A stretch of 64,000 nucleotides of DNA from Impatiens glandulifera (Eukaryota > Streptophyta > Magnoliopsida > Ericales > Balsaminaceae). Numbering within the stretch: the first letter of the stretch is position 1; each line of letters opens with the position of its first letter. Below the pieces are notes generated by a model. That model was given only the letters and a program-made list of their open reading frames with translations, searched no databases and was not told the origin of the DNA. Of this stretch, positions 4,619 to 50,691 are shown piece after piece. The stretch covers positions 25,065,905-25,129,904 of the forward strand of contig NC_061866.1 in NCBI RefSeq assembly GCF_907164915.1, written 5' to 3'. The position numbers were made by a program, and so were the translations under genes.

Positions 4619-4800
4619 ACGTCTAACTACGCTCTTCTTCAAACTACTACGTCTAAGAAGATTAGACGATGTCTAACTAAGCTCGTCTTAAGACTACTAC
4701 ATCTAAGAAGATTAGACGACGTCTAACTGGGCTCTTCTTCAGACTACCACGTTTAAGAAGATTAGACAACTTCTAACTGCGCTTGCTTCAGACCGCATCC
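4619..4800. repeat. Tandem array with GTCTAA...TTAGAC hairpins beside C1
   Basis: About three copies of a 55-60 bp unit flank the C1 LTR. Each contains GTCTAAGAAGATTAGAC (6-bp stem, loop GAAGA) or a close variant. The GTCTAA/TTAGAC half-sites are the same as in the large array inside the C4 LTR (61203-61737), so this may be a relic of a related LTR into which C1 inserted. Confidence 0.6.
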
Positions 4801-5559: not shown

Positions 5560-6010
5560 CTTAAGGAAACCAGTGATATATTTTATTCTATTGTGTTCAA
5601 GTGTGGATTTGGTTCTATTGTATATCATATTTGGAAAGAAAGGAATGCTAGAGTGTTTTCAAGTGTGAGTATAAGTATTGATTAAGTTTGGGAAGGCATT
5701 GTGTTTTATAGCGCCTCTCTTATGCGAACTTGGAGGTGTGTTCCCGCAAGTGAGCAAGCTTTGAGTATATGCCAAAGTTGAAAGATTCCTTATAATGTAG
5801 TCGCTCAAGTGAGAAATTCAAAGGCGAGATAAAACTTTAAAATGTGTTTGTAATAATTCATTAGCTTGTAATTTTGATGTATGTTTTTTTAGTTGTCTTT
5901 ATAAATCATGTCTTGGTTTTGTCTAGCATGATACAAACAATTATTGTCGATTTTTTCCCATTTTTGCATTTTTAATAAAATGACGATAAGTCGTTTTCCA
6001 AAAAAAAAAA
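5560..6010 (+). pseudogene. 3' end of an L1-type LINE, with poly(A)
   Basis: Translation shows the degenerate C-terminal tail typical of plant LINE ORF2 (SYLERKEC, IWKERNARVF-like), with stops. It ends in TAATAAAATGACGATAAGTC and then a run of A at 6000-6010. The same 3' motif in reverse complement is seen at the poly(T) end of the truncated LINE at 54063. The hAT MITE at 5256 appears to have inserted in this LINE. Confidence 0.65.
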
Positions 6011-6734
6011 CATTCGTTGGTTTTCGTGACAAACACGAGGTTCGAGAATTTCAACCTCGGTTTGCGTGTTAAAATTTTTTTTTTTAAAATAAAACATTAT
6101 TTAAAAGATTTTATTAATTCACGACATCGTTTGAAATTAATTAAAAATAATTAATTTCGACGTTCAATTTTAAATAATCTGGAGATACGGTAATCATATC
6201 ACAATTTGAATTTATTATTTAGTTTAAATTAATTAAACATAATTAATTTAAAAGATTATTGATTTTAAAACAGAGTTGTCAATTGATTTTTAAAAATCAA
6301 TAAAAGTTGGCATACGTATACAAACGTATTGACCAAAGTTTTCTTTTTGTTCGTATTTTGGTGATAATCCGGAAAGGAATTCGCGCTTTATCCTCCGTAC
6401 CCATTTTAAAAATGGTATTTACTTATAAAGTTTGGCTTTTGAAAATCAGTTGTATAAGGTTTGAGTTTTAACCGATTATTCTTCTAGTCAAAGTCATTTT
6501 CTAGGTTTTAGCATTATTTAAAATATTGAAACAACAATATTTAAAATGATGGTACCTATTTCTGTTGATAACTAGGGAGGATTATACATGAAGAACAACT
6601 GTCATTTTAAGGATGTTAGGGTTTAGGAATAAACACAAAACATGCCTTAGTCAAAATAATTTTTTTCGTAGAAATATCCCAAAAATATTTTGAAATCATT
6701 TTCTAATTTTTTGGGATTTTTAGAAAAGTGGAAC
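6011..6734. other. Non-coding, probable gypsy/LARD-type relic
   Basis: AT-rich with no supported gene. It contains the second copy of the dispersed direct repeat at 6393-6555. Confidence 0.4.
6393..6555 (+). repeat. Dispersed direct repeat, copy b
   Basis: Diverged second copy of 5018-5185 in the same orientation. The two could be parts of two related LTR or leader sequences of one LARD-type element. Confidence 0.55.
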
Positions 6735-7345
6735 CAAACAGGCATTAGGACCGGAGTTCTAAGCTTGGAGTTCGTTTTTGGGACGGGGTCCGGAGACCCT
6801 TAGTCTAGGTGCTATGGACTCTAAGTTGAGATTATCGGTCTAGGTATATAAACCCATCAGTCTTAGGTTAGCATGGACTAAGTCTCTCGATCGAGGTGTA
6901 TAAACCTCATGGTCCTAGGTTAGCTCTAGGCTAAGTACCTCGGTCGATGTGTATAAACCTCACGGTCCTGGGCTAGCTCGAGGCTAAGTGCCTCAGTCCT
7001 GGGTTTAGGGATTCTCAGTCTTGAATTGAGATTCATCGGTCCTAGGTTTGGACCTCTCGGTCCTAAGTTCTAGAATCCTCAGTCCTAGGTTCAAACCTTT
7101 CGGTCCTAGGTCGGACCTCTCGATCCTAGGTTAGATCTCTCGGTCTTAAGTGAAAATCCTCGATCGGATTTCTCGATCCTAGCTCAAGAACATCGGTCAG
7201 ACCCTCAGTCCTAGTTCAAGAATATCGATTGGACCTCTCGGTACTGTTAAAATTATTGGTCCTAGGTTTGAATTTCTCGATCCTGGGGTTCGGGCTAGAC
7301 CGAGAATCTTCGGTCGGATCTCTCGGTCCTACACTAACAAGCTCG
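6735..7345. repeat. Degenerate array of CTCGGTCCTAGGTT units
   Basis: About twenty imperfect copies of a short unit built on CGGTCCTAGG. 6840-6990 has a longer period of about 65 bp that includes the hairpin GAGGT-gtataa-ACCTC; near 7297-7314 GACCGA-gaatct-TCGGTC also pairs. No coding potential. Confidence 0.75.
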
Positions 7346-8836
7346 GTCATCAATAACACCTAAATTAATTTTTTTTAATTAGTTTTTTTAGAACGAATTC
7401 TTTGATCCAAGTGTTTGGGTAGCTTCACAAAGCTTACAAGAACATGTTGATCATCATCTCATGGTATCAATCAACTTGGATGATGATCAAATCGTTCAAA
7501 ATAATTTTTGATCAAAATTTGAGTTTTTGATTGTAAAACTGTTTTGAGTGGAAATGAGATACCCAATAGCTTTCTTATATCTCATATACTTGATTGTTAC
7601 TAAAACAAGAACACTGGTTTTTCGTTTTGACCAAATCAAGAACAAAAAAAAATTATTTTTTTTTGAAAATTTTGATTTTGATCAAACATTATCGGGATGG
7701 ATCAAACATGATCCAAATATTTGTCCAACATCATTACAATCATGTTGAGATGCTTTCTAGGTTATGATTCAACATAATTAATAGCCCAAGAACAACAAAC
7801 CCGATTTTTGGATTTTAAAAATTCAAATTTGGATTTTTGTTCTTAAGATCAATTTATCCTATCCAAATAGTTATAAATGATCCTTAGATATATATCCAAC
7901 CATAAAACACCATAAACAACAAGGATACAAGCTTATACAATTTGAAATATAAAAAAGTCAAATTCAAACTCTAAATATGAATTAGAGGGTGATTGGATAT
8001 TTACTAGGATTGAAGAACACTTCTTAAACCTTAATAAATGTATTTGGATGCTCAGATCCAAGGTTTAAGGCCTTATCCAAAGTTTTCAAAAAATCTGAAA
8101 GCTTGAAGCTTTAAAGGTATATTTATGAAAATCGACGATTGGAAGGTGAATAATGGATCTATTACCTTCGGATCGACTCAAGGAGCTATTTATAGCTGCC
8201 CAAGGTCGGTTGATCCATCTAAGTGGACTGAATTAGCCAAAATCCATTTATGGTATTTTGGTTGTGCTTCCTCAAGTTGGCTAGAATAGGGTTGAATCAT
8301 CCTAATTCTTGTAGGAGAAATGATCACCATCATAAGGTAATCATTTCAGGATTTAAATCAGGCGAAATGGTTGACTAACGAAGGAGTTCCAAAAAGAGAA
8401 GATCAAAGACGGGTCTTTGATCTTATCTCTTCGGCGTCGCATTGGAGATGAATGTGGCGCTAAAAACGACGTCGTTTTGAGCGCGTTTGGACATTATGTT
8501 GGCGTTCCGTCCAAGCACCGTTGCGTCTAGGCATTTCATTAGCGGTCTGACTAACGGGCATTAGCCAATCTGGTGCCTCGTGAGCGCGCGCTCCTTCCAC
8601 TACAGTGGGCTATGTGGGCGCGCCTAGAGCATGGGATGGAGATTCGATGCTCATTCGATGGCTTTAGTTGCGAAAGTGGCTTTAATTCCCGATTTCAGCT
8701 ACACCAGATTACGATTTTATTATTTATTTAAAACCTTAAGGGTTTCTTTGAAATTTATTTTTCTTTCACCCTTTTGGCTTTATTTTTGATATTTTTAAAT
8801 AAACAAAATTTTAAAATAAATATGAAAAATAAATTA

Positions 8837-8840
<4 letters not shown>
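7346..8840. other. Non-coding stretch, no gene seen
   Basis: Only short chance ORFs are present. The GC-richer block 8390-8640 (many GCGC and CGTCG) shows no recognisable protein. Probably part of the same retroelement relic. Confidence 0.5.

Positions 8841-8871
<31 letters not shown>
8841..8871. repeat. (TA)n microsatellite
   Basis: Uninterrupted run of TA dinucleotides of about 31 bp, directly before the LTR-like repeat at 8874. Confidence 0.95.
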
Positions 8872-8873
<2 letters not shown>

Positions 8874-8874
<1 letters not shown>

Positions 8875-9232
8875 GTTAAATAAATAATTGTTTTAGATGA
8901 AATGGATACAACAATTCATTCTAAATTATTTATTTGTGTCCCTTTAATTTTTCTAAAATTATCTTATAATAAAATTGGTACGGACCTTGAGTTAAATTGA
9001 TCGTGTCATGTGCAACGTCCATCTAAAAAGACTAAATACCTAAAGGGCAGCATTTATCCCAAATAATTTTATTTTTTTTATTTTGGCATTAACCCTTAAT
9101 TAATTTGATTAATTAATTATTTTAATTGGGTTTTTAGCAGTGGGATTAATTATTTTGATTTTATTTATTTAAAAATAAATCAAAATATTATTTTAATATT
9201 ATAAATTGTAGTGTAGATTTTTAGTGTTTATA
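8874..9232 (+). repeat. LTR-like dispersed repeat S, copy A
   Basis: Begins TGTTAAATAAATAATTG and ends GTAGATTTTTAGTGTTTATA. Copies in the same orientation lie at 26328-26617 and 28424-28724, ending ...GTGTTTACA. TG...CA-like ends, about 300-360 bp length and dispersion suggest solo LTRs of a gypsy family, but no primer site follows. Confidence 0.6.
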
Positions 9233-10090
9233 GTGTGCTCCTCTCGAATCGAGTTTGAATACAACAAAATAGTTTTTGAAAACATTGATTGAGTTTGACA
9301 TCTAACACTAGGTTATCTAGTCCAATTTATAATGAGAGAGTTTAAAAAGATGGAACATGTAGCGTGCTGAATATTGGAGTGACCTAGTGATGCTATGTAT
9401 ATCAATTCGTCAAGGTTCTTTCAAGCGTTGATGTATGGATTTTTCTTTGATGCTTATCCTAATAAAGATAATTCTTTTGTGGAATCATGTTTTACAGAAC
9501 TTAACAAAGTACCCGTAAAATTCATAGGGTAAAGATAATCTTAGGTAGTGAAACATCATTTCGTGTATAGTCTAGTATGATTATCAACCGATTATTCATA
9601 TTTTAGTCATGTATAAATGGCTCAAGGATATTATTATGAGATATGATGGGAAAATGAAAGTTTTAGTAATGTTTCATGTGGGTTACTAACAAGTAACATC
9701 TTTAGGGTGATCATAAATATATGATCATTAGACTATCAACAATAAGTCTTGGTGAGGAAGTCAACAAACTTTCCTATAGGTTTTGTTATCGTGTGATCAT
9801 GAATATATGATCATGGTATCGCTAATGGATATCGCGAGAGATAACAAAATTTCCGTAAAGATCACCAACATGTGAGGTTGAGAACGATCGTGTATAAATG
9901 ATCGTGGTTCTATCAACAGATAGACTTTCATATCATTGTGAATTGGGAATAGAACATTTATCGAACAACGAAACTTTATTGGAGAATAAGACTTTATCAA
10001 AGAACGAGACTTCATTAGAGTACCTATCGCGGAATAGAATTTTAACAAGATCATGTACAAACGATCGTTGTGCTTGTTGACAAACAAGGC
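9233..10090. other. Non-coding repeat DNA with imperfect palindromes
   Basis: No gene. From about 9700 there are recurrent small palindromes such as GATCAT-aaatat-ATGATC (near 9709), GATCAT-gaatat-ATGATC (near 9794) and ACGATC-gtgtataaat-GATCGT (near 9885). These foreshadow the ordered arrays that follow. Confidence 0.6.
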
Positions 10091-10245
10091 TTGAATACCT
10101 ATGGAGCGATAGGGTTTGGATACCTACTCGGACGATAGGGTTTGAATACCTATTCAGACGATAGGGTTTGGATACCTATTCAGACGATAGATTTGGATAC
10201 CTATTTGGACGATAGGGTTTGGATTCCTATCCGGACGATAGGTTT
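10091..10245. repeat. Tandem array, about 30-bp period, five copies
   Basis: Unit is close to GATACCTATTCGGACGATAG plus GGTTTG. Each unit contains a CCTAT...ATAGG inverted repeat with a 6-7 base loop. The copies differ by a few substitutions. Confidence 0.85.
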
Positions 10246-10553
10246 TTTTTGTTAGAGTACCTATTACGAGATAGGGTTTTCTTGGGGTACATTATCAAGA
10301 GATGAGATTTGGTTATCTATTGGGAGATATGATTATGAGGTACCTGTTCAGATGACAGGGTTTGGATACCTATCGAGCGATAGGGTTTGATCAAGATCAT
10401 GTATAAATCATCATTTTGCTCGTTGACAAACAAAACTTGGATACCTAGGAGTGATAGGTTTTTGTTTTGAGATATTTGGTTTTAGTGATTTTAGGAGAGG
10501 TGATACCTATCAAGAGATAGGGTTTTCGTATAATCCTAAATAAACGTTGTATT
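10246..10553. repeat. Irregular copies of the CCTATC...GATAGG hairpin unit
   Basis: Four or five loosely spaced units. Stems include CCTATCG-ag-CGATAGG (near 10368), CCTATC-aaga-GATAGG (near 10507) and CCTGT-tcagatg-ACAGG (near 10343). The last has a changed base pair that is still complementary. Confidence 0.65.
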
Positions 10554-10945
10554 GACCTATTGACAAATAGGGTTTAGTCATGAAGTCGTGTGCGAATGAC
10601 GTCTAGACCTATTAATAAATATGATTTAGTCACGGATTCGTGTACGAAAGATGTCTTGACCTATTAACAAATAGGATTTAGTCATAGAGTCGTGTACGAA
10701 AGACGTCTCGACCTATTAACAAATATGATTTAGTCATGGAGTCATGTATGAACGCCGTCTGAACCTATTAACAAATAACATTTAGTCATAGAGTCGTGTA
10801 CAAACGACATCTCGACCTATTAACATATAAGATTTAGTCACGGTGTCGTGTACGAACGACGTCCCGACCTATTAACAAATAGAATTTAATCACGAAGTTA
10901 TGTACGAACGATGTCTCGACTTATTAACAAATAAGATTTAAACTG
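10554..10945. repeat. 52-bp tandem array, about 7.5 copies
   Basis: Unit starts (GACCTATT...) fall at 10554, 10606, 10658, 10710, 10762, 10814, 10866 and 10918, an exact 52-bp spacing. Each unit carries two inverted repeats: CCTATT-aaca-AATAGG (perfect in some units, one mismatch in others) and GTCGT-gtacga-ACGAC. No ORF spans it. Confidence 0.92.
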
Positions 10946-11072
10946 GATCATATACGTATGATCTCAGGTCCTTGTTAACATACAAAATTATTAACGAATC
11001 ATCTTACAAATGATCTCCATGTTTGTTAAGAAACAAAGCTTTCAATGGAATTGCATACGAACAATTTCTCAT
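10946..11072. repeat. Transition units between the 52-bp and 77-bp arrays
   Basis: Three units hold GATCATA-tacg-TATGATC (near 10945), ATCAT-cttacaa-ATGAT (near 10998) and AATTG-catacgaa-CAATT (near 11050). The stems differ but each pairs. Confidence 0.6.
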
Positions 11073-11458
11073 ACCTATCAATAGATAGGGTTTAGATACC
11101 TAACTACAATCAGGGTTTAACTGGGATTAGGTATGAAGAATCTCACATACCTATCAACAAATTTGATCTAGATACCTAACTGCAATCAATGTTTTTAGCA
11201 AAATCGTATAAAAACGATATATCGCACCTATCAACAGATAGGGTTTGGGATACCTAAATACAATTAGGGTTTATCCGGGATTGTGTATGAACAATCTCAT
11301 TTACCTATCAATAGATAGGATTTAGATACCTAAATACAATCAGAATTTTTAGCGGAATCGTATAAAAACGATCTATCGCACCTATCAACAGATAGGGATT
11401 AGGATACCTAACTATAATTAGGTTTTTATCGGAATCGTAGATTAACGATCTATCACAC
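11073..11458. repeat. 77-bp tandem array, five copies, interrupted by gypsy insertion
   Basis: CCTATCAA starts fall at 11073, 11150, 11227, 11304 and 11381, an exact 77-bp spacing. Each unit contains CCTATC-aaca/aata-GATAGG, CCTAA-ctacaa-TTAGG and a GATTG...CAATC or ATCGT...ACGAT stem. The next unit boundary (11458) is where the gypsy pair is inserted, and the array resumes at 16906. Confidence 0.88.
11423..11458 (+). repeat. Left copy of the 36-bp duplication flanking the gypsy pair
   Basis: Identical over 36 bp to 16870-16905. It contains GAATCGTAGATTAACGATCT, which other units of the array do not have in this form, so it is not just a neighbouring unit. Confidence 0.88.
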
Positions 11459-11943
11459 TGTTACGGTCTGCTCATCAAAAACATCGGTCCTAAAATATTT
11501 TATGCACCCGTCTCTCGGCCCAAGTGTCCATATGGGCCAGTTTATGTTTTTATGGAATAATTCTGTTTTGTTTCCTTTCTCTCTTATTTCTCTTGAAACC
11601 GAATTCTGTTATGTTAGAAGTAGTTGTAACCGAATACTTTTTGGGTAAACCAGCCTCTTTAAATGTTGATGCCCACCCCACTTTTTGGGGCTATGAATTG
11701 AATATTTTGGAACTTGGTGCTCTAAGTTATCTCTCGGCCCTCCTCCCCCTTCTTGGACTACTAGGTGTAATCTAGTGGCATTTCTCTTCTCCCCTTTGGC
11801 TCTTCTCTCCTTAACCTCAAATTCTCATCTCATTTTATGTCTGCTGCGCTTGAGTGTTGAATTCCACCTTCGGCCCGATCATCAAGAACCCGTTTCTTGA
11901 ATTAAAGAACTTGAAAGGCCCGGTTATAGTTTAAAGCCGAACA
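11459..11943 (+). repeat. 5' LTR of G1
   Basis: Starts TGTTACGGTCTGCTC and ends GCCGAACA; 485 bp. Matches 14063-14547 almost base for base, indicating a young insertion. An 83-residue ORF appears in both LTR copies and is a by-product of the repeat. Confidence 0.9.
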
Positions 11944-11945
11944 AT

Positions 11946-11956
11946 TGGTATCAGAG
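11946..11956 (+). promoter_or_regulatory. Primer binding site of G1
   Basis: TGGTATCAGAG, complementary to the initiator tRNA-Met 3' end, two bases after the LTR. Confidence 0.85.
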
Positions 11957-11972
11957 TTGGCCGATTCTCAAC

Positions 11973-13085
11973 ATGGTAGAAACTCGCCAGCAATCAGAAA
12001 TGGATGCGCTCAAGGCCCTCATTGAAAACCTGTCCCAACAAACAGCTGCGATGCAAACTGCCATAGACCGAAGATTTGATGCGGCTGAAGAAAGAATGAC
12101 AGCCTTTGAGAGCGGGGCATCTGGAAATGTGCAAGAACCCCGCCACATGCCCTATGATGATAATTCTTGCCACGGTCCTTCACCATTTAGGCCCCCGCAC
12201 CCTGACCAGAATCGTGACCAACACTATGCTCCTCCTACTCGGCTAACCAATGTCGATTTTCCTCGGTTTGATGGGTCGGATGTCGAGGGCTGGCTAATAT
12301 CTGCCAAGCAATTTTTCAGGGTGGACAAAACTAAGGATGCCACTAAATTAGAAATCTCCTCCATTCATTTTTCTGGAGAAGCAAGAATGTGGTACGGGTC
12401 ATATCTTCAAAACCGAAATCATATGGAAGCCTTATCTTGGGACGTGTTCAAGAGAGACCTTATGACTCAATTCGGGCCCTCTATACATGACACACCAATG
12501 AGACAGTTGATGAATTTAAAACAGGTTGGGTCGATTCAAGAATATAATCTACGATACATATCGATCTATCAAAAACTCTATAGCATGCCAAGGGAGTACG
12601 TCAAAGATTGCTACTTGTCCGGTCTAAGGGAGGAAATTGCAAACTACATTAGGCTGCGATTCCCAGATTTTTTAAACGAAGCCATGGCCATTACTAAAGT
12701 CCAAGAAGCAACATATCGGTCCTTAATGAGCAGTGGTAACTTGTACAGCGCTGAAGCATCGTTGCTGCCCACGCCATCCAATGTCAACACAGCCGGGCCG
12801 AGCACCAATACTGACTTCAAGAATTCATCATATGGGTCCTCTTCAAATGCAATCCAGGGCCATGTTAAGCAATTAGACCCAGCATCAATGGATGAAAAGA
12901 AAAAGAAGGGCCTATGCTACTCTTGCAATGAAAAATGGCAACCAAACCATAGGTGTAAATCAAAGTTATTCATGGTCTCGGCCAATCAAGAAGATCAAGA
13001 ACCTGACCAAGAACCTGTTTTGGATGATCTACCTTCATTGCTCGGCCCAAGGGATGAACCAGCCATATCCTTATACATGCCTTGA
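11973..13085 (+). CDS. Ty3/gypsy Gag (G1)
   Basis: A 370-residue capsid protein of a Ty3/gypsy element. An N-terminal coiled-coil-like segment (about residues 1-50) is followed by the Retrotrans_gag domain (about 90-240: PPTRLTNVDFPRFDGSDVEG, ARMWYGSYL, DLMTQFGP, SIQEYN). A zinc knuckle CYSCNEKWQPNHRC lies near residue 312, the variant knuckle of chromovirus-type elements. The start lies 30 bp after the LTR and is the first ATG after the primer site. The ORF ends at 13085 where the frame slips by two bases before the protease. It is related to the gag of G2 (15631-16326, minus). Confidence 0.88.
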   Translation: MVETRQQSEMDALKALIENLSQQTAAMQTAIDRRFDAAEERMTAFESGASGNVQEPRHMPYDDNSCHGPSPFRPPHPDQNRDQHYAPPTRLTNVDFPRFDGSDVEGWLISAKQFFRVDKTKDATKLEISSIHFSGEARMWYGSYLQNRNHMEALSWDVFKRDLMTQFGPSIHDTPMRQLMNLKQVGSIQEYNLRYISIYQKLYSMPREYVKDCYLSGLREEIANYIRLRFPDFLNEAMAITKVQEATYRSLMSSGNLYSAEASLLPTPSNVNTAGPSTNTDFKNSSYGSSSNAIQGHVKQLDPASMDEKKKKGLCYSCNEKWQPNHRCKSKLFMVSANQEDQEPDQEPVLDDLPSLLGPRDEPAISLYMP

Positions 13086-13513
13086 CCGGGTCTAAAGCTT
13101 TCCAAACGCTCCAGATTCTTGGCAAAGTTAGGAACCTACCGGTGGTGATCCTGATTGATACAGGCAACACCCACAATTTTATCAATAGCATGATTTTGGA
13201 GAAAATAGAACACAAAAGCATAGCAACCAGGGTGCAATCGGTTAGAGTGGTCGATGGGTCTAATGTGTTATGCTCTAGTGTTTGCAAGGACTTGAAGTGG
13301 TCGATGGAAGGCAATGAATACCAAACAGAAATGAAGGTAATTTCCATGGATGGATATGATATTGTGCTGGGAATTGAATGGTTGATTACTCTAGGCCCGT
13401 CTTCTTGGGACTTTGAAAAGCTGACCCAATCCTATGAGAAGCAAGACAGAACCACGGTCCTAAAGGGGATTCCTCTGTCGCAGGCCAGTCTGATGCATGA
13501 AAACCAGCTGTAA
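13082..13513 (+). pseudogene. Retropepsin-like aspartic protease segment (G1)
   Basis: 143 residues with the active-site motif LIDTGNTHNF (Asp near residue 26) and the downstream flap/core motif IVLGIEWL, as in gypsy proteases that cleave the polyprotein. It overlaps the end of gag in another frame; family alignments normally have it fused in frame, so a small insertion near 13070 probably broke the fusion. It ends at 13513, where RT should follow but does not. Confidence 0.8.
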
Positions 13514-14062
13514 AAGACCTTAGATGAATATATTGTTGCTGCCAAAATGCAAGTAAAGAGTAAGCCCGAAGGCCAAACTGTTTCACTCGCGGCATTGACA
13601 TTGGAAGATATTCCTAACGATCTAATTAGAAGATATGGCTCCTTCGATGCTGCTGTTATGCTAGTTCGGGAAAAAGACTTGGCCTGAATTTTTGAGCCAA
13701 GTATGGAGTTTAATCGAAGTTGGAAGAAATTATTTTTACACCAGGCGCTGGGGACATTGCAGCAACCAAGGCCAGCTCTAAACACTGAAAAACTCGACCT
13801 TAGGTGCACATAAATTCCTCACATGGGCGGAGTGAGTGGCAAGCGACCCGACAACGCAAAAGATCGCAAGGACCCGGCCAGTTCCACTACTGAAGCGATT
13901 CTACCAAAAGTTTTTTGAGAAAATACGGTCTTATGCTACGACCCTTGCTGAATGTGCCGAAGCCCGACCGAAGCAATAGTTTTGAAGTTAAAGATGCGTA
14001 TTAGAGGCTGACCAGTCCATGTTCTTTTCGTCGAGGACGACGAACCTCGAAGGGGGAGATTA
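13514..14062 (+). other. G1 interior remnant and polypurine tract
   Basis: A short remnant near 13560-13690 reads QTVSLAALTLEDIPNDL, which looks like the C-terminal tail of gypsy pol, so RT to integrase were lost as a block. The polypurine tract is at 14050-14062. Confidence 0.55.
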
Positions 14063-14547
14063 TGTTACGGTCTACTCATCAAAAACATCGGTCCTAAAAT
14101 ATTTTATGCACCCGTCTCTCGGCCCAAGTGTCCATATGGGCCAGTTTATGTTTTTATGGAATAATTCTGTTTTGTTTTCTTTCTCTCTTAATTCTCTTGA
14201 AACCGAATTCTGTTATGTTAAAAGTAGTTGTAACAAAATACTTTTTGGGTAAACCAGTCTCTTTAAATGCTGATGCCCACCCCACTTTTTGGGGCTATGA
14301 ATTGCATATTTTGGAACTTGGTGCTCTAAGTTATCTATCGGCCTTCCTCCCCCTTCTTGGACTACTAGGTGTAATCTAGTGGTATTTCTCTTCTCCCCTT
14401 TGGCTCTTCTCCCCTTAACCTCGAATTCTCATCTAATTCTATGTCGGCTGCGCTTGAGTGTTGAATTCCACCATCGGCCCGATCATCAAGAACCCGTTTC
14501 TTGAATTAAAGAACTTGAAAGGCCCGGTTATAGTTTAAAGCCTAACA
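14063..14547 (+). repeat. 3' LTR of G1
   Basis: 485 bp, TGTTACGGTCTACTC to GCCTAACA; about a dozen or more differences from the 5' LTR at a rough visual count. It abuts the truncated LTR of G2 directly. Confidence 0.9.
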
Positions 14548-14550
14548 ATT

Positions 14551-15019
14551 CGTAAGGTGTGTTTTGGGTTCAAGAATAAAGTTCTTGATCACTAAGACCG
14601 GTGGAAATTCTACAATCAAAGGGCAGCGAAAGGTTTTCGATAGAGAATTGGGGGGGGGAGGGGATAGAAGAATCAAAGGTGCGAAGAGAATTACTGTTGG
14701 TCTATACCAAACAGTCCATAGTAAATAATAATAGATGAATAGGGACGAAGTTCATATCTTCATTATTCCATTCATGGGTCCTTGGGGAAGAAAGACCAGC
14801 CTTATATAGGTGATGTCTTGCCCCATAATATTCGGTTACAACAAATACTAGAAAATAACAAAATTCGGTTTGTAAAATAGAAAAGGAAAGCAAAACAAAA
14901 TATTAATACAACAAAACAGAAATCTAGCCCATGTGCACACTAGGACCGAGATCGGGTGCCGAGAAAGGTTGCTGGAATTATTCTACGACCGAGGCCTTGA
15001 TTCTTAGGGTCTAGCATTA
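14551..15019 (-). repeat. 3' LTR of G2 (truncated)
   Basis: Matches 16398-16863 closely (CGTAAGGTGTGTTTTGGG at one end, GGGTCTAGCATTA at the other). The terminal TGTTACGACTTGTTT of the other copy is replaced by the end of the G1 LTR. Confidence 0.88.
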
Positions 15020-15165
15020 TCTCCCCCTTCAAAATTCGTCGCCCTCGACGAAAAAGACCGTGGTCTGCCGAGTCTGTCGAGCCTCTAATGCGCATGCTCA
15101 ATATTTCAAAATTCGGTCGGACTTCAGTAAGTCCAGCAAGTGTCGGAGTTTTAGGACCGCATTTC

Positions 15166-15612
15166 TTAGAAGCCTTCGGTCTTCATGCTCCATAGCCAGT
15201 CATTCCTTCGGCCCAACACGCCCGGTGCGGCAAAATGGCCATTTTTCTTCCGGGCATATTCTAGAATGTCTTCAAACAACCAAGCCCAGTCCTTTATCCA
15301 GACCAGCAACACATGCGCAACAATATAGCCATGTCTTCCGACTACCTTTCTGGCTGGTATTCGGTTGTTGGGTTGCTGGGTGAGCCCTTTGATTATTTTT
15401 TGGAAATTTTTAGGAGCGTCTTCCAAAACAAGTGAAACACTTTGGCATTCGTTCTTGTTGATTATTTGTACCGTGGCAGCAACATTATGATTTTCCAAGG
15501 CCTTTTCTAGCTGACTGCCTTGTATTATGTTGACCCGCGACCGAGGGGAACCTTGCTGGACCGAGAAAGTGTGCAAGATAATGACACGTTCGTCCCTTGT
15601 CTCAAGCACCAA
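15166..15612 (-). pseudogene. G2 post-gag coding remnant
   Basis: A 148-residue minus-strand ORF that continues after the G2 gag. It includes LEDAPKNFQKIIKGLTQQP, reminiscent of the linker near the fused end of gypsy pol, but there is no protease or RT motif. Treated as a degenerate remnant; its function cannot be assigned. Confidence 0.5.
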
Positions 15613-15630
15613 AGGTTGGTCATAAAAATC

Positions 15631-16326
15631 TTATTCTTGGACGGGTTCTTGAACGAGTTCTTGAACTTCTTGCTGATTAGTCGGGGCCATGAACAATCTG
15701 GATTTGCACCTATGATTGGGCTCCCATTTTTCATTGCAAGTATAACGTCGGTCTTCCTTGGGATCGTTCGTCCGATTTGTGCTCGGCCAGACCGTGTTAA
15801 CAATGCATGGTTTGGGCAGCAGCGGCGGCTTGGCGCTGTACAAGGGCCTACGACCGAATGGCAGCAAAAGATCGCTCTTGAATGCATCCCACGTCAAAGC
15901 TACCTTTTGGTTGCGATTCTGCAAATATGATTCATGCCACGTTCTTACCTCTTTTGAGACGTGAGTGCGGACAATGTCTAGCTTTGTGGCATAATTCGTC
16001 TTGCTCTCTCTAAAGATTTGCTCGGCAAATAAGAGCCATCCCTCCAAATCAGTCCCATCAAATTCAGGAATATTAACATTTGTGAGCCGGGTTGGGGGAC
16101 GGTAGCAAGAAGCAATAATATAGGATCGGGTGCGGGGATTTTGGCCATTATTAAACACACCTTTTTCAATGACTGTCAAGATTTTTCCAGCAGCATCCAT
16201 TCTGTTCATATTTTGCAGAAAAGCATTGTGCAAGACAGCATGTTCGGTCATATGTTGTCGCAAGGCAGTATTCATGGAGGCATATTGTTGGGTCAGCCCT
16301 TCGAGTAGGGTCTTAAGATCATCCAT
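15631..16326 (-). pseudogene. Ty3/gypsy Gag with internal deletion (G2)
   Basis: 231 residues on the minus strand. It shares with G1 gag the motifs PPTRLTNVNIPEFDGTDLEG, AFKSDLLLPFG and knuckle remnant YTCNEKWEPNHRC. The sequence jumps from the middle of the gag domain (DLLLPFG) to the pre-knuckle region (LYSAKPPLLPKP), so about 90 residues present in G1 are deleted in frame. The first Cys of the knuckle is changed to Tyr, so RNA binding may be impaired. Confidence 0.78.
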
Positions 16327-16382
16327 CTTTGCTGCTATCAGGTTTCTTTTATTTGAGAATCGTCTTGCTCTGATACCAAGAA

Positions 16383-16868
16383 TGTTACGACTTGTTTCGT
16401 AAGGTGTGTTTTGGGTTCAAGAATCAAGTTCTTGATCTCTAAGACCGGTGGAAATTCTACAATCAAAGGACAGTAGAAGGTTTTCGATAGAGAATTTGGG
16501 GGGGAGGGGATAGAAGAATCAAAGGTGCGAAGAGAATTACTGTTGGTCTATACCAAACAGTCCATAGTAAATAATAATAGATGAATAGGGCCGAAGTTCA
16601 TATCTTCATTATTCCATTCATGGGTCCTTAGGGAAGAATGACCAGCCTTATATAGGTGATGTCTTGCCCCATAATATTCGGTTACAACAAATACTAGAAA
16701 ATAACATAATTCAGTTTGTAAAATAGAAAAGGAAAGCAAAACAAAATATTAATACAACAAAACAGAAATCTGGCCCATGTGCACACTAGGACCGAGACCG
16801 GGTGCCGAGAAAGGTTGTTGGAATTATTCTACGACCGAGGCCTTGATTCTTAGGGTCTAGCATTAACA
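16383..16868 (-). repeat. 5' LTR of G2
   Basis: 486 bp from TGTTACGACTTG to AGCATTAACA in plus-strand terms; adjoins the primer site on its left side and the 36-bp duplicate on its right. Confidence 0.88.
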
Positions 16869-16869
16869 A

Positions 16870-16905
16870 TTTTTATCGGAATCGTAGATTAACGATCTAT
16901 CACAC
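16870..16905 (+). repeat. Right copy of the 36-bp flanking duplication
   Basis: Identical to 11423-11458. The hairpin array then resumes at 16906 with ATATCCACATATAGGG, the expected next 77-bp unit. Confidence 0.88.
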
Positions 16906-19147
16906 ATATCCACATATAGGGTTTGGATATTTAACTACAATTAGGGTTTAAATTGTACGAACAATATCATGTACCTATCAAAAGATAGGGTTTAGGAGAC
17001 TCGATTTTTTTTGCTTATTTTGCTTTTGTAGTATCGGTCGCGGCTCTATGACTTTTAAGAGAATATTTAAATAGAATACATGTTTCCCCTTTCTTTTCAA
17101 AATGTCCTTCGTAGCTAGTTGAAATCCATATGTCGATGGTTTCGAGCCTTTTCTTTATAGACAAATGACTCATGTTTTTGGATAAAGAAACATTTTTTGT
17201 TTCTCTAGTTCCTATTATTGTTTATCTCTTTTCTTTTTTTTGAGATTGGAATGAACCTTGATCCTTTGGAATGAATCATGCCGTTTTTAGATTTGAAACG
17301 TATTCGGGGCTAGACTTCGAACATCTTTTCTATTCTTTGTGATGATTGTTTTCATTACGGAATAAGATTTCCTTTTCCCCCCAAGTTTCGAGATATCGGC
17401 TATAAATTTTATCTCGTCCACAAATGATTATCCACAATCATAACCCTCAAGGAAGTTGGTCAACACCTTCATGTTTTGATAAAAGAGTGCAACTTATTTT
17501 TGGTTGCTCGGCCTTGAACCTCATTTCTTGAAAGTTCAACTCATCACAAAAACATTTGGGAGATGTTTTTATCAACTTTCTTCTTTGAGTTTTCATATGC
17601 CATTTGTACAAGTTTTTTTCGTTCGATTCCTCCTAAGAAAAATACCCTGTCTTTAAGGGCGGTTTGTGCGATCCAGAAATGATCAACACCATGTCTTACC
17701 TTCCTCACGTGCTCCCGTGGTAGTAGATGAGGGATTTTTATGGTAGGTTTGACCCGTACACTATTTTTTAAGAGAAAACGTTTTTTCGTGAGTTAAGGCG
17801 AGCTATGTTAAAGAACCCCTTGACTTACCTTCCTCTACATCCTGTAAAAAGGTGGAAAGGGACGAGGAACCGAAAATAGTGTTATTTAGAATATGCCTTT
17901 TGAATTGGCCCGTACAGTTTTTAAATTGATACACTCGTGGATGTATCGATTTAATTGACTTAGGAGTCTTCACTTTAGTTTTCTTCCTAAAGAAACTAAA
18001 TAAAAGAAAATCAGAGATTCATTTTAAGAGTTCAGTGTTTGTTACGTATTAAGAAATGGCCTACGACGCTATGTCATATACGTCTGTCTTTATAGACAAT
18101 CTACTCTTAAGTAATTGACTAGTTAATGTTTGAAGGATTATTACGTTTTCGTTCTGAGTTCATAACTCTTTTGCTTGTGTGAGAAATATTAACCACTTTT
18201 GCAAAGGGGCTAATCATATTCACAAGGTACTTGACGAGGATAAAGCAATGAAAATCTTAGAGCACAACTCCAAGGGAAGAAAGGGTTCATGATTCCCGAG
18301 GGAGAATAAATGAGTGTAAACGAATAGGATGAGGATTCAGATCAAAGATTAGAAATTTATTCATTTAAAAAGAAGAAAAGAGAACAAATTAATCCAAAGT
18401 CCTGAGTGTTTTCCTTTTGAAATTTTCGGCGTTGTGAAAAAACTCCGAATACAACACCTTAAAACAAGTTATTTTCAAAAATGATTTCCAAAATTCTCTA
18501 AACTTCGCATGATAGTCAAAAATATTTTTAGAAACTCATAGGAATTGAGTTTCGAATTTTTGAAGTTATAAAACTCTAGATATGACACCGTAAAGACAGA
18601 TGTTTTTTCAAACGGATCTAAAAATTTCTAAAAATAATTATGGGCATTGAAAGTATTTTTAAGAAGCTACATATTTAATTTCATGATTTTTGGACTCATG
18701 AAATTCAAGTTATAGCTTTTTACAGTTCCGGATTTTGCCAAACAAGCTCTATAAATTCCAAAAAATTATTTTTGAAGAAAATAATAATTTTGAATTTTTG
18801 AAATTTTTTTGAAATTTTGTGAAAATTTGGGAGTGATTTAAATGTTTGAATCATCGTTATAAAGTTGTTTGTTAAACTTGGGAAACAAATAGGGCTTAAG
18901 AGTTTATTTTATTTTTAATTTTTTAAAGTTTGAAATCAAAATAAAAGGAAAAGAAAATCAAGGGTTCAATTAAAAAGAAAGGAAGAGTTCAAGGCCTTTT
19001 TAATTTTAATTTAAATAATTAATTCCAAATTAAAATCTTTAGGCATATTTAAAAATTAAAAAGGCCCAAGGGCCTCTTTGCAACTTCCTGAGAAGTTGGG
19101 GAATTCAAAAATGAAATATTTCCTCCGATCTCCGTCCGCTTTCCGTC
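16906..19147. other. Array end and non-coding LARD-type relic
   Basis: 16906-17005 is the end of the hairpin array (perfect CCTATC-aaaa-GATAGG at about 16973). The rest is AT-rich and has no supported gene on either strand. It looks like the interior of a decayed gypsy-type element, but nothing identifies the family. Confidence 0.5.
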
Positions 19148-20601: not shown

Positions 20602-21274
20602 TAATGCGAGTAGAATCATTACGACTAACACCGTGAGGTTCATTTGAATAATTCGAGTATAGATCCCCAAGGGAATAATTAACCGTGGACCCAATTAAAT
20701 GTGAGTAACAAAAGGTGTAAATAGTTAAATTTTGCAAGATAAATAGAATAAACAATTAGAGGACTCGGAATGATACTTGGACAACGGATGCTCAAGGCAC
20801 ATGACAGGAAACAACAAACTATTAACCGATATTGTGAAAGAGTCTGGTTCAAAGATTATCTTCGGTGACAACTTTAAGGGTAAAACTGTGGGCAAGGGTA
20901 AGATTGTCCATGGCAACTTAACAATAAATAATGTGTTACTTGTCGAAAATTTATGCTTTAACCTTCTCATCATAAGTCAGATGTGCGATATAGGATATAC
21001 TGTGGAATTCTATAAACAAGCATGCTTAGTTAAGAATCAACAAGGAAGTAATTTGTTGACAAGACATAGGGTAAGAAACATCTATAAAGTAAATTGGAAA
21101 AACAAATGTCCTAATTCTGTTTGCATGATTGCTAAAAATGACCAAAACTGGTTGTGGCATAAAAGATAGAATCATTTGAACTTTAAAACAATCGACTATA
21201 TTTGTACTAGGGAATTAGTTCAAGGAATTCCTAATATGAAGTTTTCAAAAGACAAGGTTTTCTCTTCTTGACAA

Positions 21275-22735
21275 ATGGGTAAACAAATTAAATCAACCTT
21301 CAAAAGTAAAGGAAATATTCAATCTAATAGATGCTTAGAGTTTTTACACATGGATTTGTTTGGACCAATTAGTGTAACCAGCTTAGGAGGAATGAATTGC
21401 ACTCTAGTAATTATTGATGATTACTCTAGCTTCACTTGGGTTATTTTCTTAGTCTCCAAAGATCAAGCTACCCCAAACTTAATTAAGATGCTTTAAAAAG
21501 TGCAAAATGAAAAATCTACACGTATTCATAAAATCAGAAGTGATAGAGGCACTGAATTTACTAATAGAGTGTTAAAATCTTATCTTGAGGAATCTGGAAT
21601 TAAACATGAGTTGTCTAGTGCTATAACTCCTCAACAAAATGGCTTAGCTGAGAGGAGAAATAAAACCCTTAAGGAAGTTGCCAGATCCATGATAACAGAT
21701 TCGGGTGTTGCTAAACTTTGGGCAGAAGCTTTAAACACAACATGTCATACTCAAAACCGGTCCATGATAAACAAACGTTTTAATAAAACTCCTTTTAAGG
21801 TTAACAATGACAAAGTTCCTAATATCCGGTATTTTAGGATATTTGGCTGTAAGCGTTATATCCACAATAATGGCAAGAACTATTTGACCGCTTTTGATGC
21901 CAAATCTGATGTTGGTATTATGTTAAGATATTCTGCAGTTAGTAAAGTATATAGAGTTTATAATAATAGGACACTTACTGTTGAAGAATCATCTCATATT
22001 GTATTTGATGAATATGTTGAAAGTAATACAACAATAGCCATTGATTTGTCTAACAGATTGGAAAATATTAATATCCAATCTGATAGTGAAGATGAAGTAC
22101 AAGTCTACCAAAGATTTTTTTATGATCAACCGGTTAATAACGCTGAAGTTTATCATGATCAAGTTGTTCCGCAACAAGTAGTTGACACTTCGGATAATGA
22201 CAAGGAAACTGGTCGGTCTGATACTATTCAACCTATCGGTCAATCAAATATTGATAAAATAACTGGTCGATCAGAAAGCATTTCAGGACCAAACTTCAAA
22301 TGGAATAAAGATCATCCTCCTAAGCTAATTATAGGTAAACCCTCTACATCCATTAGAATTAGGCATCAATTGTTAGAAGAATATGCAAATTCTGCATTCA
22401 TTTCACAGATTGAACCTAAAAAGGTGGATGAGGCATTACTTGATCCGGATTGGATTTTAGTAATGCAAGAGGAACTAAACAAGTTTGAGAGAAATAAAGT
22501 ATGGCATCTAGTTCTAAGACCAGCTAATCAATCTGTCATTGGAACTAGATGGGTCTTTCGAAATAAACTCGATGAAAACGGTTTAGTTACGAGGAACAAG
22601 ACTAGACTAGTGGCCCAAGGATACAAACAGGAAGAAGACAATGATTTTGAAGAATCATTTGCTCCTGTCGCCAGACTCGAGACTATTAGAATATTTTTAA
22701 CATTTGCTGTTTTTAAAATTTTTAATGTTTTCTAA
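21275..22735 (+). pseudogene. C2 integrase and start of reverse transcriptase
   Basis: Two adjoining open segments (21275-21496 and 21500-22735) encode the integrase core and C-terminal domain, then the start of RT ([29 protein letters not shown]). The catalytic Asp, Asp and Glu positions of the integrase are still readable, but a stop after IKML and the stop at 22735 break the frame. RT would otherwise copy element RNA into DNA. Confidence 0.82.
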
Positions 22736-26328: not shown

Positions 26329-26617
26329 TTTTTAAATGAAATGGATACAACAATTCATCAAAATTATTTATTTTGTCCTTTAATTTTTCTAAAATTTTGA
26401 GACAATATGAGTACAACTTTTATGCCAATTAATTTTATTTTTTATTTTCCCTTAACTCATTATTAATTTGATTAATTAACACATTAAATAATCATAATTA
26501 ATTGTCTTAAATAGGTTTTGGCCATGAGGTTAATTATTTTGATTTTATTTATTTAAAAATAATTCAAAATAATTAGTTTAATATTATAAATTGGAGTGTA
26601 GATTTTTAGTGTTTACA
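26328..26617 (+). repeat. LTR-like dispersed repeat S, copy B
   Basis: Matches 8890-9232 (AAATGAAATGGATACAACAA at the start, TAGATTTTTAGTGTTTACA at the end). Truncates accessory ORF B of C2. Confidence 0.7.
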
Positions 26618-28423
26618 GGTAGAATTAGTACATTTTACTCTTGCGACAACAATCAAGACTAGAGTCTAAGTGAGCACGAATGAAGATTTTAATAGCTTTA
26701 AAGGAGCGGCGAAATTCGTGATCGGCACGATCGACACAATCGGCACGGCTGACATGATCGACACGTTAGTCAAGTGAACTTCGGTCAGTTGATTTGGTAG
26801 TCGGTTACGGGAATCGTGGTTGGAGTCACGATCATCAGCACGTCTGTTACGTTCGGCACATCAAGGAATTTCGTCTAGGGTTATAAATTGTGAAATCAAG
26901 AAACATCGGTTAGGGTTTGAACAAGGTCCGGAAAAGGGTCGCGAAGTCTTTGCCTACGATTGTTTGAGGTTGGTCGCGGTTCAGTTCCTAGTTTGTTGCA
27001 CAGGGTATTTAAGTATTCTGTATTATTCTATTATGTATTTGCTCTATTTGCTGCATAATTATGTTCTTCTACAATAATGGGAAGAAAAAAAGCAACAAGG
27101 CAAATGAAGTTCAAGAATTTGATTTGGAGGTACAAAGGATGCTGCTGAATCTAAAATCCGTAGGAAATCAAAGGAAAATGTACAGGAAATTATACAATAA
27201 GACAATAAAGGTAAACAACCCGTTAATGTTCAAAATTCTGGTGAAACTGAAGTAGGAAAACATGGGAGAAATGAGAGAATATGGAGGGTTGGGTATAAAA
27301 AAAGAACAAATCTCTTCGGACTTAAAAATTTAATCACAAAGTTATTGATGCATGCATAGAAAGGAAAGATTGTTCTAAACAAAGATAAATTCCACCAAAC
27401 AAATATTCAATTGAATGTAAACTACCTCAAGGATTGGAATTTACTAAAGAAGGAAGAATATGAAAAAATAGTTAACTGGTCTGTGGAAATAATGAGGGAG
27501 CTGATGAAGTCCCAAAAATTAAAGATATATACTATCATAAGAAATTCCAGCTAGATGGTAATGAAGTCTGAAAAAAAAATGTAGAAAAGAAAGCAGATGA
27601 TCATGCATACAAAGGTCAAATCTACTTGTGTGAATTTAAAACAAAAGTCGAGATTTTCAACTCTCCTTGTGAATTTAAATTACCCAGTGAAGTGGATGAG
27701 AAATGCGTCAAAGAATTGGAAAATGTAGTTGTTAAGAACTATATAGGGAAAAAAACCATGTATCTTTTCCAGTTACCAAGGAGGCACTAATGAAACAATG
27801 GGAGCAGAAATGACTGGAGAAGGTTTCTACAAACATCAATGATTTCTATTTTATGCAATTCAAAAAGGGAACAAATTTGGATGATATTCTGAAAATTGGA
27901 CATAATTATATTGGATCGAACTGTATGAAGTTGGAGATATGGTCTAAAGAATCGAGTCTTCTAAGCAAACCAAAAGAAATAGTCCAAATATGGTTCAAGC
28001 TTAAGAACATCCCATCACACATGTATAATGCATAAACTCTAAGTCACTTTGCTAGTCTATTAGGGAAACCATTATATATAGATAAAATTGTAGAGGGAGG
28101 AAAGCACATTACTTTTGCTAGAATAAGCATTGAAGTGCTTTCTCAAAATACACTGCCAAAGAACATGATAGTTGTTGATAAGACGGGAAAGCCAACAGTC
28201 ATAGAAATCTCATATGAATGGAGGCCAAACAAGTTTGCTTTGTGTAATACTTTCTAACATGTTAGTACTAAATGTGCAAAAACAATTGAGGAAGAGTAGA
28301 AAATCCTGAAAGCCTAGGAAGCGAAAAAGTAGGAAAATGAAACGGAAGAGATAATCTCGTCCTCAGTTTCTAAGGAGTGTTTAGTTTTGAAATCCAAGTC
28401 AGAGTAAAAGGAAAATCATTTTT
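26618..28423 (+). pseudogene. LINE ORF1 relic with DUF4283 domain and CCHC remnant
   Basis: A leader of about 440 bp (26618-27060) is followed by a broken ORF. 27061-27255 is basic. After several stops comes a DUF4283-like segment (NYIGKKTMYLFQLP near 27740, KLEIWSKESS, VQIWFKLKNIPSHMYNA, LLGKPLYIDKIVEGG, FARISIEVL) and a zinc-knuckle-like tail (ISYEWRPNKFALC...HVSTKC) near 28210-28270. This is the usual order in ORF1 of plant L1-type LINEs, an RNA-binding protein. At least six stops or frameshifts show it is dead. Confidence 0.72.
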
Positions 28424-28724
28424 GGGTTAAATAAATAATTTTTGGGGATGAAAATCATTTAATCCTAAATTTTTTATTTTGATCCTTAATTTTCTAAAAT
28501 TACTTTAAGATAAAATAAGTATAGTATTTATCTCAAATAATTTTTTTTTATTTGGTTATTTTCCTTAATTGATTAGATTTTAATAATTATAATAATTAAT
28601 CTGATTAATTGTTTAATTAGGTTTTGGTATTGGGGTTAATTATTTTGACTTTATTTTTTTAAAAATAAATTAAAATAATAATTTTAATATTATAAATTGG
28701 GTATGTAGATTTTTAGTGTTTACA
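28424..28724 (+). repeat. LTR-like dispersed repeat S, copy C
   Basis: Begins GGGTTAAATAAATAATTTTT and ends GTAGATTTTTAGTGTTTACA, the same family and orientation as copies A and B. With copy B it brackets the LINE ORF1 relic. Confidence 0.7.
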
Positions 28725-49358: not shown

Positions 49359-50691
49359 TATTTGACTAAGTGTATGAGTAACACCTCAAAAGGCACTTAA
49401 AGTTTATATATATAAATAGATAAAATGTTCTCTTTCTTTATTTTAGCAAGGAGAAAGTGATGTTTTAGCAAAGAGAAAGTGAAGGATATAAAAATAGAGA
49501 GAGTGGAAGAAGTGAAAGAAATGTGCTGAGCAAATGAGAGAAAATTGGGAAGAAAAGAGTTTAGTGTTTGATTGAGTTGGTAGATTTAAGGATTGACTGA
49601 ATTAAAGGTAAGAAATATTTTCTAACTACAGTTTATTTTTATTATAAATATATATATAGATATGTATTGTTGTTTAAAGATAGAGCATGTGTATTTAAAA
49701 ATTGGTTTCTAAAAATATGAATTAAGAATGCATGTATATGTTGATGATAAAATTTGAAATAGTTTTGGTAAACTGATAGTTTAGGATTGATAATTTTGAA
49801 ATGAGTTTTTGATAAAATGAGGGTTTATGAAAGTTGATTTTGAAATGGGTTTTGATCAAACATGGTATATGAGAAATGGATTTCAAAATAGTTTGAGCTG
49901 ATTATTTCGACGATGAAATGGAATACGCTGTACTTAGACTTGGAAATGAAGTTTTACATAATTATGACGATTGTACTACTTATATTACTCTGGACTTGAT
50001 CTTGTACTTGTTTATATAATAATGGACTATTTGTGCTTTGAGTGCCGTTTATACCGGTTATGCGTCAACGCAAGACCTTTACGTCTTGGTTGATGGCTAC
50101 CGTGTCAATGCAATAATTTCATGTCTTGGTTGATGGCTAATGCGTCAATACAAGACCCTAGTCTTGATTGATGACTAATGCGTCTATGCAAGACATTCAT
50201 TTCTTGATAGATGACTTATTATTAAGTTCTTATGATATTAGAGTCACTATCTTGATCCCTAAGTATATAAATACGATGTTGTGATAAATAATTTCTACAT
50301 CTATTTAAGAATTAATTTTCTATGAAGTTATACATTATTTTTGATCTAGCTGTAGAAAGATGTGATTCTCTTACTGGGCGTATTTAGCTCATCCATTTAA
50401 ATGGATTTCTTTCAGATAAGAACAATGATTAGTTAGAAGGAAGGTTGGGAAGAAAACGGTATATATTTAGACTAGCCGGTAAAGAAGTTTAACACTCTAT
50501 TTTGTAGTAGTAAAGATGTATAGTGAGTGTGCAAATATGAAAAGACAGTGTTATGTAAGAATGTGATATGTCATCACCTATTTTAAACTAATGTTGAAGG
50601 TCTTAGTTTATGGCAAAAATATTAGGTAAGTTTGATGAATGTATTAGTCTATTATGTCAATGCTTAAAGATTTTTGGTTCGGGGCATGACA
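49290..50691 (+). repeat. 5' LTR of G3
   Basis: 1402 bp. The first 330 bp match 52048-52296 in order (CTAAGTG..TGAGT.ACACCTC, AGAGAAAGTGATGTTTTAGC). Around 50060-50200 it carries a triplicated TGCGTCAATGCAAGAC..TCTTGGTTGATGGCTA unit of about 50 bp. Confidence 0.85.
49302..49359. repeat. (AAT)n microsatellite in the G3 5' LTR
   Basis: About 19 AAT units here against about 5 at the same place in the 3' LTR (52058-52075), so the run expanded or shrank after insertion. Confidence 0.92.

Follow-up and report, generated by a model that had tools for sequence, protein, structure and literature searches.

Strings of short hairpins with a shared loop in the 3′ untranslated repeat zone of a Tat-lineage retrotransposon of Impatiens glandulifera

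Introduction

Plant Ty3/gypsy long terminal repeat (LTR) retrotransposons of the Tat lineage carry a hypervariable 3′ untranslated region (3′UTR) built of tandem repeats (Macas et al. 2009, via PMC7004042; the Retand survey, PMC11963269; soybean Gmr9/GmOgre, PMC3305785; sources with PMC numbers are cited throughout from the parts available to us). Here we describe arrays of short hairpins in the 3′UTR of such an element in Impatiens glandulifera, within a 64,000-nucleotide stretch of contig NC_061866.1 (positions 25,065,905 to 25,129,904, forward strand; hereafter the window). Some plant genomes consist in large part of Tat elements, including Ogre, which accounts for 45% of that of Lathyrus sativus (PMC7004042), and new satellite DNAs arise from the 3′UTR repeats of such elements. 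Where these repeats come from and what function they may have is stated to be unknown (PMC11963269).

The arrays share with the described Tat 3′UTR repeats their place between pol and the 3′ LTR, short-period minisatellites, variable unit number and element-borne dispersal, and as in Gmr9 (PMC3305785) several minisatellites are interleaved. The initial annotation of this DNA, made from the letters alone, knew of no named element with this layout; it is that of the published Tat 3′UTR. The difference lies in the hairpins. Hairpins, loops and covariation are not mentioned in the available parts of PMC11963269, PMC7004042, PMC6317226 and PMC3305785, and we found no account of hairpins in Tat 3′UTR repeats among the top-ranking papers in searches of open-access literature, which excluded the founding paper of Macas et al. 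(2009). Tandem repeats at this location are well known, and the hairpin grammar (unlike stems, a UGUN loop, the sense strand) was not found described.

RNA transport elements of retroelements sit near the 3′ end and are compact folds. Those of intracisternal A-particle (IAP) elements, the RTE, and of MusD, the MTE, the latter with a pseudoknot and a kissing loop, are structured cis-acting RNAs that export full-length transcripts, and Ogre elements contain an intron (PMC12786077). In contrast to these folds, the Tat array consists of many small repeated hairpins, and an export role would be by analogy. Large retrotransposon derivatives combine long LTRs with an internal region that does not code for protein and in which RNA structure is said to be conserved; the family studied here differs in retaining pol remnants, and its hairpins lie in the 3′UTR and LTR. 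Satellites derived from Ogre 3′UTR repeats (PMC7004042) share their raw material with the array, although 19 of the 20 array copies fetched here are element-flanked and the fetched stretches showed no long array standing free. The enod40 stem-loops, which derive from transposable elements and resemble tandem-repeat units (PMC10578108), have no bearing on the array.

We propose, with a probability of roughly 0.6, that this 3′UTR repeat zone is a repeated cis-acting RNA hairpin platform sharing a UGUN loop, a reading drawn from sequence statistics. More tentatively, hypervariable Tat 3′UTRs might constitute an undescribed class of cis-acting RNA, a string of UGUN hairpins that varies in number and extends over 3′UTR and LTR. 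Its information would lie solely in the loop and the fold, with a conserved structure behind a sequence that looks hypervariable. If true, this loop-and-stem grammar would give the region a testable function, allow relatives to be recognized independently of sequence, and offer a reason for the fast change of 3′UTR sequence and length.

Results and Discussion

The arrays are the 3′UTR of a Tat-lineage element

The arrays are the 3′ untranslated repeat zone of a decayed, minus-strand Tat-lineage element, lying between its integrase end and its 3′ LTR. This follows from coding remnants, LTR repeats and the layout of a related copy, all in the same assembly (labels C3 and L010–L041 denote individual copies or loci, and W the window copy). 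Beside the array of C3, on the minus strand and between the LTR repeats, lie pieces of RNase H, a second RNase H and integrase, in that order. RT_RNaseH matches above its cut-off (3.3e-12) and rve below its own (0.0032); the second RNase H, seen in C3 only and placed between the RNase H and integrase pieces, matches RVT_3 at 1.9e-5 (25 bits, cut-off 21.6). Within Tat, such a second RNase H between RNase H and integrase is a hallmark of the Ogre and Retand subclades (PMC6317226). Part of the stretch to the left of the array recurs in C3 as a direct repeat, the arrangement typical of LTRs; the repeats are separated by 6 kb of internal sequence and are 82% alike over 1301 columns. In L032 the 77-bp and 52-bp arrays start ∼1.5 kb downstream of an integrase end that is 85% identical. 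A search of the assembly with the integrase end gave 150 matches among the best 150 of 1916 first-look candidates.

Within Tat, Ogre-like is a better guess than Retand, because the window LTR of ∼3.2 kb exceeds the Retand range of 315–1,194 bp (PMC11963269). An antisense open reading frame (ORF) with a TRP28 domain is present in 97% of Retand clusters (PMC11963269). Seven antisense ORFs of at least 100 aa were listed for five of eight loci, and none of the five that were scanned has this domain, most copies being decayed. The Ogre subclade is further characterized by a gag-pol intron and an extra ORF upstream of gag.

The assembly searched comprises 654 Mb in 1110 contigs, and all comparisons are within this one species. 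Positions 9700–11458 gave 198 matches among the best 40 of 1086 first-look candidates, and the array is present in at least 39 places other than the window, where the order of the unit types is often conserved. Twenty copies were fetched with their flanks and together with the window make up 21 loci. The copies are 70–82% alike, differ in unit number and array length, and look old and neutrally decaying, so much of the observed change is neutral decay.

Several other identities were considered. A free-standing element is ruled out by the LTR-side or pol-side flank present in 19 of the 20 fetched copies, L023 being the single copy with neither next to its array, and subterminal repeats of a CACTA or MULE transposon by the nature of the flanks, which are an LTR at one end and pol remnants at the opposite end. 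At L011 an inverted copy of the left flank resembled a terminal inverted repeat; the direct LTR repeats of C3 speak against this. The 108-aa minus-strand frame at 9800–10123 has no Pfam match. We found no tRNA genes, and the window has no Rfam 15 match at gathering score; further Rfam 15 scans gave three weak matches, each far under that score.

Hairpins are abundant in the array

The initial annotation described non-coding units of 30, 52 and 77 bp at 9700–11458, nearly all with a CCTATY-AACA-RATAGG stem and with a second stem that changes in both arms. The 52- and 77-bp periods hold, whereas for the 30-bp one Tandem Repeats Finder (TRF) gives 26 bp, and 'nearly every unit' is too strong, since the perfect stem is present in two of seven 52-bp units. 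The string of hairpins is itself real, albeit with a start at ∼9320 and a resumption at 16868–17000 beyond two nested retroelements. The individual stems are found as described: CCTATC-AACA-GATAGG at 11227 and 11381, CCTATT-AACA-AATAGG at 10660 and CCTGT..ACAGG at 10343 for the first; GTCGT..ACGAC at 10793 and 10845, GATTGT..ACAATC at 11279, AATTG..CAATT at 11049, ATCGT..ACGAT at 11203 and GATCATA..TATGATC at 10946 for the second; and the additional CCTAA..TTAGG stem at 11253.

Perfect hairpins (stem of at least 5, loop of 3–9) number 43 at 9236–11458, compared with a mean of 16.2 in dinucleotide shuffles; for those with at least two G/C in an arm the counts are 30 and 5.6. Beyond the array, in the 611 bases of 17010–17620, there are six, with 4.4 in shuffles. 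By zone, a hairpin score computed for 12 of the 20 fetched copies stands at 2.65 times the shuffled value in the tandem part, 2.0 times in the non-tandem string between it and the LTR (zone 1) and 1.98 times in the LTR; past the array it is 1.26 over the initial 600 bases and 1.5 over the 1200 that follow. When the hairpins within a single unit were summed, the p value was 0.003 in a 77-bp unit, 0.07 and 0.15 in two 52-bp units, and 1.0 in a 26-bp unit. In sibling copy L034 the hairpin stretch has an RNA fold z of −6.5, versus −2.5 for a control on the integrase side (20 shuffles each).

A UGUN loop is shared on the sense strand

When tetramers were ranked by the complementarity of their flanks, without selection for stems, plus-strand AACA (UGUU in the sense of the element) was first of 177 (21 loci, distinct left arms). 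Ranking of trinucleotide loop classes placed sense UGUN first in 16 of 17 3′UTR or LTR stretches from two Tat families (46–64 classes), with z values of 3.5–8.6 where first; several siblings are near-copies, so that the 17 stretches are not independent. UGUN leads in ten of 11 3′UTR stretches (46–60 classes), the exception being L032, where it is fifth of 59, and in all six LTR stretches (L034, W, L010, L012, L033 and L039; 63–64 classes). L041 was excluded from the sibling loop test as a member of the window's own family. After 193 sites from five stretches were collapsed to 72 mutually dissimilar ones, the signal retained a p value of 0.0005. Among array copies, z is at least 2.7 in 18 of 21.

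As a control, the window was cut into 23 two-kb pieces and both strands were scored; over these 46 strand-pieces UGUN has a mean z of −0.17 and a maximum of 1.57 and is never first. Between integrase and hairpins it ranges from −1.0 to 1.8 in four siblings, and in the two nested elements it is 0.3 and −1.8. Stems of at least four pairs on the sense strand enclose UGUN 53 times and the mirror class NACA five times in nine stretches.

Sibling copies, which look younger in being alike to each other and in some cases having long open frames, show the pattern most clearly, and with other sequences. The 3′UTR of L033–L037 and L039 is a different one, but here too the last kilobase ahead of the polypurine tract and LTR consists of a hairpin string, with stems that differ from one another: AGGTTAT-TGTC-ATAACCT, GGGTTAT-TGTT-ATAACCC, GGTCAT-TGCC-ATGACC, AGTCAT-TGTA-ATGACT and GAGTCAT-TGTG-ATGACTC. 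Of the three Tat families compared, all thus have hairpin arrays and two have the UGUN loop. The UGU of the loop also recalls the far-upstream elements of polyadenylation signals (UGUA) and Pumilio sites, which would be further candidate roles.

Stem arms change in pairs

Pair statistics were computed from 240 distinct 52-bp and 269 distinct 77-bp units of the 21 loci. Units with more than 15% gaps had been dropped, leaving 494 of 663 (52-bp), 269 of 614 and 83 of 104, as had duplicate rows, and 252 of the 494 52-bp rows were removed from the covariation test for overlap with 77-bp matches. The summed Watson-Crick pair excess at the true register is 0.86 for 52-bp and 0.91 for 77-bp units, and still 0.68 and 0.81 within loci; with one arm slid by 1–3 columns it is −0.14 to 0.16. 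The paired changes noted in the initial annotation therefore exceed their slid-register controls, and the loops are stable. At positions with a CpG in each arm, double changes preserve pairing more often than they disrupt it, by 119:26 in the 52-bp set and 48:14 in the 77-bp set, the two sets overlapping. In a small alignment of siblings, A1, seven double changes fall at pairs of UGU hairpins and five of them re-establish a pair (0–2 in slid controls), and G.U changes exceed A.C changes by nine to four.

As a test beyond phylogeny we used our own R-scape-like null, in which substitutions are redistributed on the unit tree. One pair per family passes, 32–47 in 52-bp units (E 0.011) and 31–38 in 77-bp units (E 0.0002), and no pair does in slid registers; an earlier run with mixed unit families likewise gave one pair per family under E 0.05 and none in the 26-bp set. 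The formal test is weakly positive overall, and we take the covariation to be real and to rest on few ancestral events.

The excess of G.U over A.C combinations in the sense strand (leaf counts of 442 versus 261 and 423 versus 206) was dropped as support, as mutation bias can account for it. The counts may also be affected at the outer stem columns, which lie at the ends of the models where mutated bases may be trimmed.

Evidence against the proposal, and rival explanations

A number of observations weigh against a selected RNA platform. At the scale of the region the fold is modest (z −1.1 sense, −1.4 plus) and no lower in the array than in the LTR. The tree null is passed by only one of 11 and one of 17 stem pairs, and the outer G-C pairs of the first stem decay without compensation. 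By eye, zone 1 hairpins change mostly on one side between 16 aligned copies. The paired C/G–T/A swaps of the initial annotation are real, but in part ordinary CpG decay in dead copies, and the compensation counts are of cells, not events, and inflated by shared ancestry. In alignment A1, five of the seven rows are near-identical, and L040 supplies four of the five compensations, two of them where it aligns poorly. The sense G.U excess is matched by a general bias of G>A over C>T (0.0437 versus 0.0335; 0.0571 versus 0.0454). As for the loop, UGUN z is only 0.1 in L014 and 1.5 in L023, in L025 and in 940 bases of the LTR of L032, and the mirror class NACA reaches 3.0, 3.9 and 4.7 in three of nine stretches. 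The third family, L038, which is at 69% at its integrase end, lacks the UGUN signal and uses other hairpins: its array has AGTTAGAC-GTTGAA-GTCTAACT with CATTAGAC..GTCTAATG variants and matches the window array at 61203–61737.

The strongest rival, although we consider it unlikely, is that the hairpins are a functionless by-product of template switching or palindrome correction during reverse transcription or repair, multiplied by tandem duplication. The mostly negative tree null fits this, as do the best hairpins of single units, often within chance (p 0.04–0.21), and the hairpin units in other arrays of the window (4619, p 0.047; 50060, p 0.076; 61203, p 0.003–0.01). Abnormal strand transfers have moreover been proposed as a source of such repeats (cited in PMC7004042). 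Palindrome correction, however, would not prefer one loop class on one strand across LTR, 3′UTR and two families, and it leaves unexplained why the integrase-side part and the nested elements lack the signal. The initial annotation had offered selection on a folded RNA or DNA, or repair of inverted repeats. Folding of RNA, or of single-stranded cDNA, is favoured over repair because the loop class is strand-specific and common to two sibling families.

It is improbable that the conserved part is a DNA signal, either an array of teloboxes (AAACCCTA, sense strand) or palindromic protein sites with the arms as half-sites. Over 53 kb of array from the window and the 20 other copies, the telobox TAGGGTTT does occur 304 times, exclusively on the plus strand, compared with 2.05 in shuffles; 14 of these motifs are in the window array. 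By eye, though, many hairpins have no telobox, such as GTTACT-AACA-AGTAAC of zone 1, the GATCAT stems and the stems of L033–L040, and palindromic DNA sites require no fixed loop strand. Equally improbable are reverse-transcriptase pause or strand-transfer sites, selected, if at all, just for array expansion: structure-promoted strand transfer is established for retroviral reverse transcriptase, and unit number and array length do differ between copies, but pausing requires stable stems and no particular loop, so that the loop identity is left unexplained.

A strand-fixed loop, stems free to change pairwise and a free copy number point instead to a repeated protein-binding RNA site, as in the RNA platform proposed here. 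In a living element, the 3′UTR part of the genomic RNA and the LTR would fold into a string of short hairpins, many with a UGUN loop. Selection would have kept fold and loop and not stem sequence, with the arms changing in pairs. The hairpins would act as many weak copies of one cis-acting site for a putative protein, with a likely use in singling out unspliced genomic RNA for nuclear export or packaging. Such a role is a first guess by analogy, prompted by the structured export elements of retroelements and the intron of Ogre. If any copy number works, strand transfer in reverse transcription, as already proposed for such repeats (PMC7004042), could expand and shrink the string freely, which would account for the hypervariable sequence and length of Tat 3′UTRs.

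Organization of the window copy

The window copy lies on the minus strand and is described here from left to right. Its LTR (the 3′ LTR in sense) occupies 5990–9232, with the sense start at 9232 and the sense end near 5990; this left edge is approximate, and in copies reaching far enough left homology starts at window ∼6005–6060. Within the LTR, 6835–7330 is a repeat array with GGTC..GACC hairpins (TRF periods 53 and 20). A polypurine-tract-like stretch, sense GAGAGGAGCAC, adjoins the LTR at 9235–9245, and siblings have GAGAGGGGC or GAGAGGAGC before theirs. Zone 1 (9320–10090) is a non-tandem hairpin string, with hairpins at 9682, 9708, 9794, 9909 and 10073, and is present in 15 other copies in the 16-copy alignment.

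Three minisatellites follow. The 26-bp zone, with the hairpin CCTAT..ATAGG, extends over 10091–10550 (TRF 10091–10246 plus its margin). The 52-bp minisatellite has 7.4 copies at 10554–10940, its unit hairpins being CCTATT-AACA-AATAGG and GTCGT-GTACGA-ACGAC in plus-strand spelling. The 77-bp minisatellite has 5.1 copies with three hairpins per unit at 11060–11458, where it is broken by nested insertions; the remainder lies beyond these at 16868–17000. The unique 3′UTR stretch from array to pol (17009–17620) ends where the copy is broken at ∼17620. Homology extends to ∼17600 in most copies, and beyond it other copies continue alike towards integrase, whereas the window copy differs.

Nested element 1 (11459–14554, plus strand) has LTRs at 11459–11950 and 14063–14554 that are 96% identical and a gag frame at 11901–13082. 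Nested element 2 (14549–16866) is in the opposite orientation, on the minus strand, with LTRs at 14549–15019 and 16396–16865 that are 97% identical. We note that an exact 36-bp duplication (11423–11458 and 16870–16905), far longer than a usual target-site duplication, flanks the pair. The two share a fused LTR end at 14549–14554, and stretches of their LTRs match at 76% when one is inverted, which would fit recombination between two related elements. In another Tat copy, L037, an LTR with 93% identity to the LTR of nested element 2 borders the hairpin stretch (L037:2987–3455).

Other features of the window

At 26330–28724, unrelated sequence of 1.8 kb lies between two more fragments of this Tat LTR; at 26618 the LTR start abuts the integrase-side 3′UTR directly, the array being missing there. 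Hairpin minisatellites are also found at 61203–61737 (TTAGAC-GTGCA-GTCTAA, matching L038) and 4619–4793 (CGTCTAA..TTAGACG), and a 78-bp repeat with a CAAGAC..GTCTTG hairpin at 50060–50213. The arrays at 59680–59869 and 60065–60244, the second with a CCTCA-AATTG-TGAGG hairpin, have units that by eye look mutually reverse-complementary, and are perhaps the termini of an inverted-repeat transposon. Inverted copia-like copies with integrase and reverse transcriptase-related domains, 73% identical, lie at 2–1406 and 20662–22065. The window also contains gypsy and copia gag, reverse transcriptase and integrase pieces, a subtilase and a BACK-domain protein.

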